A stretch of 64,000 bases of DNA, taken from NCBI RefSeq assembly GCF_036409155.1, contig NZ_JAZGLW010000002.1, positions 1 through 64,000 of the forward strand, read 5' to 3'. Numbering within the stretch: the stretch's first letter is position 1; each line of letters begins with the position of its first letter. Shown piece after piece: positions 50,559 to 54,425 of the stretch. Source of the stretch: Mycobacterium sp. 050128. Its GTDB lineage: Bacteria > Actinomycetota > Actinomycetes > Mycobacteriales > Mycobacteriaceae. Below the pieces are notes generated by a model that saw only the letters and a program-made list of their open reading frames with translations, ran no database searches and had not been told where the DNA came from. The translations under genes and the position numbers were made by a program.

Positions 50559-50603
50559 TTGCGTCGATTAGCTGATCGAACTATAGTCTGGACACATGTC
50601 CAG
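50559..50603 (+). promoter_or_regulatory. Promoter plus palindromic operator of the GT4-methyltransferase-toroid operon
   Basis: TTGCGT (50559-50564) and TATAGT (50582-50587) are 17 bp apart, a close match to a housekeeping promoter. Immediately after the -10 lies CTGGACA-ca-TGTCCAG (50588-50603), perfect 7-bp arms covering the expected transcription start. A bound dimer would block initiation. The operon starts 86 bp downstream. Confidence 0.65.
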
Positions 50604-50689
50604 TTTGCTGTCACGGGATTCGGGAGCCCGTTGATCGCAATGGATTCGGCGCCCTCCGCGTTCGTTAAACCAGCAAAGAAGAGTTGAGT

Positions 50690-51946
50690 ATGCGAATTGC
50701 CTTGCTGTCCTACCGTAGTAAGACCCATTGCGGCGGGCAGGGCTTCTACATACGACATCTCAGCCACGGTCTGGTGGAACTTGGTCACGATGTCGAAGTG
50801 TTTTCCGGGCAGCCGTATCCGGAATTGCTCGATCCTCGGGTGCGATTGACCGAGGTTCCAAGCCTCGATATGTACCGAGAGCCCGACCCGTTCCGGATCC
50901 CCCGTCCCAGCGAGATACACGACTCGATCGACCTCCGGGAACTTCTGACCGTGTGGACGGCAGGCTTTCCCGAGCCGCGGACTTTCACGCTGCGCGCCGC
51001 GCGCCTGTTGGCCGAGCGCGCATCCGAATTCGACGTCGTCCACGACAACCAGAGTCTGGGAACCGGCCTGTTGACCATTGCCGCCACCGGAATGCCGGTG
51101 GTGGCCACCGTGCACCACCCCATCACCCGTGACCGGGTGCTCGACGTCGCCGCGGCCAAGTGGTGGCGAAAGCCGTTGGTACGCCGCTGGTATGGATTCT
51201 TGGACATGCAGCAACAAGTGGCGCGACAGATCCCGGAGCTCTTGACGGTCTCGTCGTCGTCGGCCGCCGACATCATCTCCGATTTCGGGGTGTTGCCCCA
51301 GCAGCTGCACGTGGTGCCGCTGGGGGTGAACACCGAGCTGTTCAAGCCGGGTTCGGGTCCACGCCAGCCCGGCCGGGTGATCGCGATCGCCAGCGCCGAC
51401 ACCCCGCTGAAGGGCGTCAGTACCCTGCTGCACGCGGTCGCTAAAACTCGGGTGAACCGCGATGTCGAGTTGCGGCTCGTCGCCAAGGTGGAACCTAACG
51501 GGCCCACCCACAAGCTCATCGCAGAACTGGGGATCTCGGACATCGTCCACATCACCAGTGGGCTGACCGACGCCGAGCTGGCCGCCCTGTTCGCCTCGGC
51601 CGAGGTCGCCTGCATACCGTCGCTCTACGAAGGGTTTTCGCTGCCCGCCGTGGAGGCGATGTCGAGTGGGACCCCGATCGTCGCGAGCCGGGTAGGTGCG
51701 CTGCCCGAGGTCCTCGGGACCGACGGCGCCTGCGCCGAGTTGGTACCGCCCGCCGACGTCGACGCGCTGACCCGCGCACTCGGCGAGCTCCTCGACTCGC
51801 CGGAAAAGCGCCGCAGCCTCGGCAAGGCGGGACGGGCGCGCGCCGTCAGCGTGTTCAGCTGGGAAGCCGTCGCCGCCCAGACCGTGCGGATCTATGAGCG
51901 GGCGATTGCACGAAGTGCCCTCACCGAAGGCGAACTGCAATGCTGA
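50690..51946 (+). CDS. GT4-family glycosyltransferase
   Basis: The 418-residue cytoplasmic product has a GT-B fold with MRIALLSYRSKTHCGGQGFYI opening shape and the retaining-GT EX7E motif EGFSLPAVE late in the protein, plus LGVNTELF. It would transfer a sugar from a nucleotide sugar to an unknown acceptor. The ATG is preceded by AAAGAAGAG; a TTG two codons earlier is possible. It overlaps the next gene by 7 bp. It has no M. tuberculosis locus I can name with certainty. Confidence 0.87.
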   Translation: MRIALLSYRSKTHCGGQGFYIRHLSHGLVELGHDVEVFSGQPYPELLDPRVRLTEVPSLDMYREPDPFRIPRPSEIHDSIDLRELLTVWTAGFPEPRTFTLRAARLLAERASEFDVVHDNQSLGTGLLTIAATGMPVVATVHHPITRDRVLDVAAAKWWRKPLVRRWYGFLDMQQQVARQIPELLTVSSSSAADIISDFGVLPQQLHVVPLGVNTELFKPGSGPRQPGRVIAIASADTPLKGVSTLLHAVAKTRVNRDVELRLVAKVEPNGPTHKLIAELGISDIVHITSGLTDAELAALFASAEVACIPSLYEGFSLPAVEAMSSGTPIVASRVGALPEVLGTDGACAELVPPADVDALTRALGELLDSPEKRRSLGKAGRARAVSVFSWEAVAAQTVRIYERAIARSALTEGELQC

Positions 51947-52698
51947 CGGTCGATTTCGATCGGCTCGGCATCGGCCCGTCCAGCAAGGTGATCGACGTGG
52001 GCTGCGGAGCCGGTCGGCATGCGTTCGAGGCGTATCGCCGCGGTGCCGACATCATCGCGTTCGACCGTGACGAGGCCGAGTTGAAGTCCGTGGAAACAAT
52101 TCTTCGCGCGATGGCCGAAAACGGCGAAGCGCCCGCTGCGGCAACGGCGGAGGCGGTCGTCGGCGATGCGTTGAGCTTGCCGTATCCAGACGAGACATTC
52201 GACTGCGTCATCGCATCCGAAATTCTAGAACACGTCACCCAAGACGACGCGGCAATCGCGGAGTTGATCCGGGTGCTCAAAGTCGGTGGCACCCTGGCGG
52301 TCTCGGTGCCCCGCTGGCTTCCCGAACAGGTGTGCTGGCTGCTGTCCGACGAATATCACGCCAACCTGGGCGGCCACATCCGCATCTACCGGGCTAGTGA
52401 GCTGCGGGACAAGATCGCGGCCAATGGCCTGCAATTGACGCATTCGCATCATGCGCATGCACTACATGCACCGTTCTGGTGGCTGAAATGTGCTGTCGGA
52501 GTTGAAAATACCGATCACCCGGCGGTGACCGCCTACCACAAGCTTCTGGTGTGGGACCTTATGCGGCGGCCGAGGCTCACCCGGATCGCGGAGTCGGTGC
52601 TCAACCCGCTGGTGGGCAAGAGCGTGGCGATGTACTTCACCAAGGCGCAGAAGGCGGGAACCGAAGCAACTCTGGGGTATTCAGTTGCGTCGATATAA
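51940..52698 (+). CDS. Class I SAM-dependent methyltransferase
   Basis: The 252-residue product has motif I VIDVGCGAGRHAFEA near residue 17 and CVIASEILEHV, like UbiE/SAM-methyltransferase 11 domains. The ATG lies within the end of the glycosyltransferase gene and its end overlaps the next gene by 14 bp, indicating tight coupling. It likely methylates a sugar or lipid intermediate of the same pathway. The C-terminal ~80 residues contain several His/Trp motifs not in the core fold. Confidence 0.86.
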   Translation: MLTVDFDRLGIGPSSKVIDVGCGAGRHAFEAYRRGADIIAFDRDEAELKSVETILRAMAENGEAPAAATAEAVVGDALSLPYPDETFDCVIASEILEHVTQDDAAIAELIRVLKVGGTLAVSVPRWLPEQVCWLLSDEYHANLGGHIRIYRASELRDKIAANGLQLTHSHHAHALHAPFWWLKCAVGVENTDHPAVTAYHKLLVWDLMRRPRLTRIAESVLNPLVGKSVAMYFTKAQKAGTEATLGYSVASI

Positions 52699-53761
52699 CC
52701 CGCCGGCAGTTCCGGGTGTGTTGAGTCCGGAGCAGTGTCGCCAGACAGCCCTGTCCATCGCCGCCGAGCAGGAGTCATCGGGTGCCATCCCCTGGTTCCA
52801 CGGCGGTCACACCGACCCGTGGGATCACGTCGAATCGGCCATGGCGCTCACCGCGGCCGGATTACTGGAACCGGCCCGAGCCGCCTATGAGTGGAGTCGC
52901 CGTAATCAGCGGCGTGACGGATCCTGGCCTCTCCAATTTCGTTCGGGGACAATCGAAGACGCCAACAGCGATAGCAATTTCTGCGCCTATATCGCCACCG
53001 GCGTCTGGCATTACGTGTCGGTCACCGGTGACATGTCCTTCGCCGCATCGATGTGGCCGGTGGTACACAAGGCCATCGACTTCGTCATCGACCTGCAGGT
53101 CGGCTACGGCGAGATCTGTTGGGCGCGAGGCGAAACGGGACCGGTGCGCGAAGCTCTGCTGACCGGTTGCGCCAGCGTGTATCACAGCATCCGGTGTGCG
53201 TTGGCGCTGGCCGCCCTGGTGGACGATCCGCAACCCGAATGGGAGCTGGCCGTGGGTCGGCTGGGCCATGCGCTGGTCGCGCATCCAGAGGCGTTCACCG
53301 AGAAAGACCGCTACTCGATGGACTGGTACTACCCCATCCTCGGCGGCGCGCTGCGGGGTCCGGGGGCGGCGGCCCGCATCAAGCACCGCTGGGACGACTT
53401 TGTCGTCGACGGCCTTGGCATCCGCTGCGTCGACGATCGGCCGTGGGTGACCGGCGCCGAAACCTGCGAGTTGGTCATGGCGCTCGACGCGATGGGTCAA
53501 CGACCGGTCGCTCACCAGCAATTCGCGGCAATGCAGCACCTTCGTGAAAAAGACGGCTCGTATTGGACGGGCTTGGTATTCGCCGACGGGAAGCGCTGGC
53601 CCGAAGAGCGCACGGCGTGGACGGGCGCGGCGGTGATCTTGGCGGCGGATGCGCTGTCGGACACCACCCCGGGTGCGGGGATCTTCCGCGGCGACGACCT
53701 GCCGCTGGGTCTGCAGACCGACTTCGATTGCGAGTGCGTCGTTACCGGCCCTGGTCGGTAA
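52685..53761 (+). CDS. Alpha/alpha-toroid (prenyltransferase-like) protein of the GT4 operon
   Basis: The 358-residue product has repeated helical segments of an alpha/alpha toroid with motifs [19 protein letters not shown] and PWVTGAETC. Related proteins are commonly labelled prenyltransferase-like or squalene-cyclase-like; none of these activities is established here and the aspartate-rich motifs of prenyltransferases were not confirmed. It could bind or trim a glycan, as toroids of glycoside hydrolases do. TTG is the start used; a GTG 33 bp later is possible. It is convergent with a methyltransferase gene, overlapping by 20 bp. Confidence 0.72.
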
Positions 53762-54425
53762 TTTCGATCGGCTCGCCCACCCGGCCGCCGATGCGTTCGA
53801 GCACCCGCAGCGAGCCGAGCGCGTGGATCTCCCGGAATTGGCCGGAATCTATCGCGCGGCAATAGATGTAATACGGTGGCCGCCCGCCGTCGGTTGGATC
53901 GGGAAACACGTCATGGATGACCAGGGCCCCGCCCACACTTACCCACTTCGCCCATCCGTTGAAGTCCTCGGTGGCGGCGGCCTCGGAGTGGCCACCGTCG
54001 ATGAACAAGAACCGCAGCGGTGACCGCCACCCGCGGGCCACGACCGGAGACTTGCCCACGATGGCGACCACGTGGTCGTCCAGTCCGGCCGCATCGAGCG
54101 TGCGACGAAACGTGGGCAGGGTGTCGAACAGTCCGGTGACCTCGTCGACCAACGAGGCGTCGTGATACTCCCAGCCGGCCTGATGTTCCTCGGAGCCGTG
54201 GTGATGGTCGACCGTGTACAGCACACCGGCCGTCTGCTGTGCCGCTGCACCGAGCAGCAAGGTGGATTTGCCGCAATAGGTACCGATCTCGACACCGACA
54301 CCGCCGTCCAGATACCGCAGCGCCGCGTCATAGAGCGCGCGCCCTTCGTCCTCTGGCATGAAGCCCGTGACCTGCGCGGCCAGCGCGAACAAGCGCTCGG
54401 GTGCACTCGTGTCGGTGTTGCTCAT
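53742..54425 (-). CDS. Class I methyltransferase (CmcI/MTase_24-like)
   Basis: The 227-residue product has [17 protein letters not shown] (SAM site) and [17 protein letters not shown], with acidic residues following that resemble metal-dependent O-methyltransferases. It is in reverse orientation to the GT4 operon but shares 20 bp of its 3' end, a convergent arrangement. Its substrate is probably linked to the adjoining operon, though this rests only on position. Confidence 0.83.

Follow-up and report, generated by a model that had tools for sequence, protein, structure and literature searches.

What does the compact four-gene cluster in this stretch of Mycobacterium sp. 050128 DNA make, and what decides when it is made? 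The stretch (the window: all 64,000 nucleotides analysed, from a host genome of 6.73 Mb) carries a GT4 glycosyltransferase, a methyltransferase and an alpha-toroid protein in series on one strand, facing the gene of a second methyltransferase, and ahead of the first gene stand a promoter-like pair of hexamers and a palindrome. A first-pass annotation made from the letters alone read this as an undescribed pathway for a methylated glycan or glycolipid. The pathway is real and it is known: judged by orthology, the four genes, manT, pmeT3, mmpH and meT1, are those of a cluster already in print, the one for 3-O-methylmannose polysaccharide (MMP), and the window adds one more member to it. Taken whole, the explanation I prefer, and in which I have very high confidence, is this known MMP cluster together with predicted TetR control of manT-pmeT3-mmpH.

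Among solved-structure sequences the GT4 protein matches 7qsg over residues 1-410 (706 bits), an entry that carries the PDB name 'D-inositol 3-phosphate glycosyltransferase' and is identified as ManT in the description of the MMP cluster (PMC9883506). All ten ManT residues that I looked at from that paper are present, including Gly15, His142, Lys240, Glu313 and Glu321, of which the last three were mutated there. For the toroid the match is 7qsj, 'Methylmannose polysaccharide hydrolase (MmpH)' (614 bits), and the protein keeps 11 of 11 active-site residues looked at, including Asp47, Asp50 and Glu262 (M. hassiacum numbering), the three mutated in PMC9883506. The first reading was thus right that the toroid acts on glycans, but its chemistry is not unclear, since it is a known alpha-(1->4)-endomannosidase. 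A Pfam scan of MmpH returned no family over the cut-off, and in a homologue search (best 120 of 6501) two proteins, P0004 and P0038, are named 'MMP endo-(1,4)-3-O-methyl-alpha-D-mannosidase'. Close homologues of MmpH also carry the NCBI name 'prenyltransferase', though the family is one of endomannosidases. The convergent protein matches 6g7d, 6g80 and 6h40 over residues 4-222 (366 bits); the PDB name of 6g7d is 'Methyltransferase domain protein', and I take this entry, which the main text of PMC9883506 does not name, to be MeT1. The remaining protein has Methyltransf_11 and related Pfam domains of a class I methyltransferase and no close relative among solved-structure sequences; it is labelled pMeT3 because its gene sits where pmeT3 does in the cluster, with manT on one side and mmpH on the other.

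In the published cluster, meT1-mmpH-pmeT3-manT of M. hassiacum, M. smegmatis and M. avium (PMC9883506), MmpH hydrolyses mature MMP to tetra-/penta- and hepta-/octamannosides, ManT adds alpha-(1->4)-mannose to these fragments, MeT1 methylates fragments with a free 1-OH, and the 3-O-methyltransferase still missing is 'very likely' pMeT3. Those are other species than the window's, which shares with them the four genes, their order and their convergence, the full-length matches (three of the four enzymes against solved structures) and the tested residues. The activities of MmpH, ManT and MeT1 are published for orthologues and by orthology are presumed for the window's organism, where MmpH would cut mature MMP into short primers, ManT would lengthen these by alpha-(1->4)-linked mannose, with GDP-mannose as donor, pMeT3 would probably 3-O-methylate the added mannose units, as is inferred in print and here, and MeT1 would cap the free reducing ends by 1-O-methylation. 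With assays and structures published for ManT, MmpH and MeT1, and pMeT3 in print as a putative 3-O-methyltransferase (PMC9883506), the pathway cannot be called undescribed, and the proposal of a new system can be put aside. The expectation that deletion would alter the glycan profile is likewise answered in print: deletion of mmpH in M. smegmatis abolishes MMP and lengthens generation time by 18% at 15 C, and not at 37 or 45 C (PMC9883506). A role of MMP in fatty acid metabolism has been proposed in published work. Mycobacteria also contain a 6-O-methylglucose lipopolysaccharide (MGLP), which, unlike MMP, is glucose-based and made by different enzymes, and which MmpH does not cleave (PMC9883506).

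The set also stays together in other genomes, so the first of the refuting conditions named in the first-pass annotation, a lack of joint conservation, fails. The counts that follow come from the best 80 of at least 593 confirmed stretches related to the window's cluster, and from 148 sampled genus genomes, the window's own among them. In 77 of the 80 loci manT, pmeT3 and mmpH are ordered on a single strand, in 75 meT1 is convergent with mmpH, and 72 have both features of the arrangement; in 65 of those 75 the end of the meT1 match is no more than 150 bp away from the mmpH match. A full manT match is missing from L018, where a contig end cuts it, and from L078 and L080; no meT1 is seen in L054, L063 and L064, and in L066 and L073 (the latter a fragment) its match lies elsewhere in the locus. 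Of the 80 fetched named loci, that of Mycobacterium ahvazicum is closest to the cluster, with 93% DNA identity. ManT itself is present in 118 of the 148 genus genomes (E 1e-100). The published description speaks of 'a very conserved arrangement' and of some pathogens that lack the cluster (PMC9883506). The ManT matches of three genomes (G014, G028, G042) are listed with one internal TGA. Three mycobacterial-type clusters (L054, L060 and P0104) come from assemblies that bear the labels Bifidobacterium breve, Acidobacteria and Sericytochromatia, and are probably misbinned contigs.

The layout is given in Table 1. The overlaps first noted between the genes, 7 and 14 bp on the same strand and 20 bp at the convergent end, are correct with stop codons counted, the 14-bp overlap of pmeT3 and mmpH presupposing a TTG start for mmpH, and the convergent methyltransferase does belong to the pathway, as meT1 of the MMP cluster.

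Table 1. Features of the MMP cluster in the window (window coordinates)
Feature	Position	Strand	Basis or detail
Promoter-like hexamers TTGCGT-N17-TATAGT	50559..50587	+	TTGCGT 50559-50564, TATAGT 50582-50587; TATAGT, and TTG at the 17-nt spacing, in most evaluable mycobacterial-type loci
Palindrome CTGGACACATGTCCAG, predicted TetR operator over the manT start site	50588..50603	strandless	Conservation; genus scan with reversed control
manT, alpha-(1->4)-mannosyltransferase (GT4)	50690..51946	+	7qsg match and named residues
pmeT3, putative 3-O-methyltransferase, class I SAM-dependent	51940..52698	+	Pfam domains and position
mmpH, MMP endomannosidase (alpha-toroid)	52685..53761	+	7qsj match and active-site residues
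meT1, MMP 1-O-methyltransferase, convergent	53742..54425	-	6g7d/6g80/6h40 match

What, then, controls the cluster? For this question the 80 loci were divided into a mycobacterial-type set of 58, of which 57 are evaluable upstream of manT (L018 is not) and which includes L047, L054 and L060 under other organism labels, and another set of 22, of which 19 are evaluable (L070, L078 and L080 are not). The promoter had been described as clean; its hexamers and 17-nt spacer are where they were said to be, but TTGCGT agrees with TTGACA in only three of six positions, and a consensus scan of 50300-54700 found no sigma-70-type promoter (0.6 expected by chance), so the call rests on conservation rather than consensus. 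Of the 57 evaluable mycobacterial-type loci, 48 have TATAGT as the hexamer right before the palindrome, and 45 of the 57 have TTG at a distance of 17 nt above that position. The 16-bp palindrome does follow TATAGT directly, with a symmetry of 7+2+7 in which the central two bases are asymmetric. As [GA]GACANNTGTCC, the palindrome or a near copy, it is kept upstream of manT in all 57 evaluable mycobacterial-type loci, at 25 to 124 bases from the start codon, and in 46 of these the 16-mer is exact, with any two central bases. The suspicion of control voiced in the first-pass annotation has a real regulatory candidate behind it.

The site is also unlikely to be there by chance. Across the 1.56 Mb of the 80 loci the core GGACANNTGTCC occurs exactly 74 times, 50 times upstream of manT and 24 times upstream of meT1, and nowhere else, and its reversed control does not occur at all. 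The pattern CTGGACANNTGTCCAG is found at a single place in the window's own genome and in 104 of the 148 genus genomes, with no match to the reversed pattern in any of the 148; the 12-base core TGGACANNTGTCCA with one mismatch is not enriched in the own genome (six matches, against six for the reversed control). An exact copy lies somewhere in the genome, at manT or elsewhere, in 98 of the 118 with ManT; in G053 and G117 the exact copy is at the gene of a second TetR-family regulator, described below as Rv0767c-like. Twenty ManT genomes have no exact copy; they, like G053, carry upstream of manT a copy with one or two mismatches. Six genomes have an exact site and no ManT match: the site is at the Rv0767c-like gene in G088, G092 and G105, where it was read, and in G050 by coordinates, and the other two are G106 and G147. 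The predicted operator at the manT promoter is conserved beyond its surroundings. Further CTGGACANNTGTCCAG sites were read in G028, G108, G117, G065, G125 and G087. Two of the sites, L100 (G028) and L110 (G125), are at the start of frames that by eye resemble molybdopterin oxidoreductases, and therefore the operator type has targets beyond MMP. In L107 the site is inside the start of a regulator-like frame, and L103, L105 and L106 have no clear target.

The 24 sites upstream of meT1 point to a likely reader. In 37 of the 80 loci a TetR gene adjoins meT1 divergently (30 of the 58 mycobacterial-type loci and 7 of the 22 others, the latter in Nocardia), and a GGACANNTGTCC-like site lies in the gap between the two genes in 37 of these 37 cases: 23 are exact, 12 have one mismatch and two have two mismatches. 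L057, where the TetR match is only partial, accounts for the 24th exact site. With the L045 protein as query and E 1e-55 as threshold, an orthologue of this TetR is present in 80 of the 148 genomes of the genus sample, namely in 80 of the 118 with ManT and in none of the 30 without, a co-occurrence with a Fisher p of 9e-13 when genomes are treated as independent of ancestry. I propose that a TetR-family dimer would bind the palindrome over the start site and repress manT-pmeT3-mmpH, and that in many relatives this repressor would be the product of the TetR gene divergent from meT1, which has a copy of the site to itself. For species with the meT1-adjacent gene such control is predicted with good confidence. 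If it holds, a dedicated TetR beside meT1 switches MMP synthesis in many mycobacteria and in Nocardia. With a predicted operator and a candidate protein to read it, the question of what triggers MMP synthesis can be put to the test.

The distribution of this gene raises a further question for the window itself. The 26 loci most like the window (L002-L025, L036 and L040), whose species names suggest slow growers, have no meT1-adjacent TetR, and of the remaining 32 mycobacterial-type loci 30 have one (the exceptions are L054 and L057). None was found in the window's genome either, so that no cognate TetR linked to the cluster accompanies the operator kept there. What else might read it? The own genome has four GGACANNTGTCC sites: the one at manT, C1:2224914, C1:2225071 and C4:197083. 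The last lies inside a frame that by eye resembles a prenyl synthase and was set aside as probable chance. The two on C1 are at the start of a TetR gene (C1:2224288-2224917) divergent from an aldehyde dehydrogenase-like gene. I take this TetR to be Rv0767c-like from the order of M. tuberculosis genes (CYP, SDR, aldehyde dehydrogenase), a label given by gene order. Two GGACANNTGTCC sites were found at nine of nine such loci read (the own genome, G088, G092, G105, G132, G143, G110, G061 and G060), and the recognition region of the own Rv0767c-like TetR, ATAYTYFSSKNHL, is near-identical to ATAYTYFSSKEHL in the meT1-adjacent TetR of L045. Among the 38 genomes with ManT and no dedicated TetR, 37 have the Rv0767c-like TetR. 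The window's lineage lacks the dedicated TetR, which it would have lost, and keeps the operator, and the Rv0767c-like TetR is the best remaining candidate reader; its takeover of the preserved operator is a possibility that I put forward tentatively. In G002, which has ManT, the meT1-adjacent TetR and the operator, no Rv0767c-like orthologue is found at E 1e-55, and the operator there therefore does without it. If the takeover is true, MMP would be wired to sterol or lipid catabolism, and a TetR related to a phytosterol-response regulator would suggest a ligand class.

Several observations weigh against this picture. Binding and repression are predicted here from sequence, and the cross-genome counts are not independent of ancestry. 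Outside mycobacteria [GA]GACANNTGTCC is found upstream of manT in none of the 19 evaluable loci, and the mycobacterial and Nocardia meT1-adjacent TetRs do not form one supported clade in the TetR tree. The same tree, which offers weak support, as it carries a long-branch warning and has several rows with N-termini lengthened by the chosen reading frame, groups the own genome's two relatives with the Rv0767c-like rows (six rows in all, 97/99) and away from the meT1-adjacent ones. As to the takeover, both TetRs are missing from the 38th genome, G025 (completeness 80%), which does have ManT and a site with one mismatch; the Rv0767c-like TetR is found in 140 of the 148 genomes, so its presence is permissive evidence only; and the own genome encodes a third related TetR, at C2:312613-313146 (L122). 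Within the pathway, 3-O-methylation by pMeT3 is putative, in print as here.

That third TetR is one example of a reader other than the Rv0767c-like protein in the window's lineage, an alternative that I consider rather unlikely. It shares 40% identity with the meT1-adjacent TetR and 53% with the Rv0767c-like one, and a one-mismatch site lies just upstream of it; however, of these two candidate readers it has the less similar recognition region, ASAYTYFPSK, and the four exact GGACANNTGTCC sites of the genome all lie away from its gene. Closer at hand is the TetR gene just upstream in the window (49591-50361, +), the nearest regulator gene and on the same strand, yet a full-length counterpart is present in only two of the 80 loci (L002 and L004, with a fragment in L040) against a site kept in 57 of 57, and its recognition region, AAPYRHF, differs. 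With counterparts this scarce and a different recognition region it was dropped as the regulator, and that it reads the palindrome is very improbable. The called frames of this TetR and of a divergent short-chain dehydrogenase (48864-49739, -) overlap; therefore at least one of the two called starts is too early.

The palindrome might also be an RNA hairpin, a terminator or leader, rather than a protein operator, and it is among four terminator-like sites found in a scan (2.3 expected by chance). It lies, however, directly 3' of the -10 hexamer, so that transcription would start within it; its core recurs in the TetR-meT1 gaps and at the promoters of Rv0767c-like TetR genes, and an Rfam search of the window gave no match, all of which makes a hairpin most implausible. 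Least credible of all is the idea closest to the first reading, that homologous enzymes with a changed substrate serve an undescribed methylated glycan or glycolipid pathway. The product in this organism is predicted from its genes and pMeT3 has no close solved relative, which speaks for such an idea, but three of the four enzymes match MMP enzymes over their full length with the tested residues present, the four-gene arrangement is identical to that of the MMP cluster, and a slow grower, M. avium, is among the MMP producers (PMC9883506). I therefore retain the MMP cluster under a predicted TetR operator.

For Rv0767c a motif logo is in print, with an e-value of 1.2e-14, below the cut-off for that study's highly significant set (PMC4482099); a similar 'motif X' stands near 14 operons, of which 12 rise more than 3-fold with phytosterol (PMC6593523); and Rv0767c sites are described as rich in GAC and GTC (PMC10312376). 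As at manT, the site predicted for Rv0767c and as 'motif X' is palindromic (PMC4482099, PMC6593523). The targets named in the main text of PMC6593523 are sterol-related genes and regulators, not manT; that main text is without 'mannos', 'glycosyl' or 'methyltransferase', and manT could still be in the supplementary operon list. For its part the MMP paper, whose main text contains neither 'promoter' nor 'operon', does not treat a promoter or regulator of the cluster there (PMC9883506). In the open-licence literature the palindrome was not found as a text string, the cluster's locus tags in M. smegmatis appear only in PMC9883506, and no report on control of the MMP cluster was found in work on 3-O-methylmannose since 2019 or methylmannose polysaccharides since 2020. 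As far as these searches reach, the conserved operator with its co-occurring TetR is an unreported prediction. In the window's genome, the TetR with two GGACANNTGTCC sites has the gene neighbours of Rv0767c; the published motifs are given as figures, and the comparison extends to their palindromic form.

Two neighbouring features deserve mention. A cutinase-family gene (PF01083; 54536-55225, +) is divergent from meT1 in the window, and many of the loci that resemble the window most have a cutinase match near meT1, at the place where other lineages carry the TetR. In five Saccharopolyspora/Halopolyspora loci (L069, L075, L077, L079 and L081) the gene divergent from manT encodes a TetR that looks unrelated, and about 57 bases before manT stands a GAACATGTTC-like palindrome. 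Is this the same design with another repressor? Similar GAACATGTTC-like palindromes occur without that TetR match in L068, L074 and L076.

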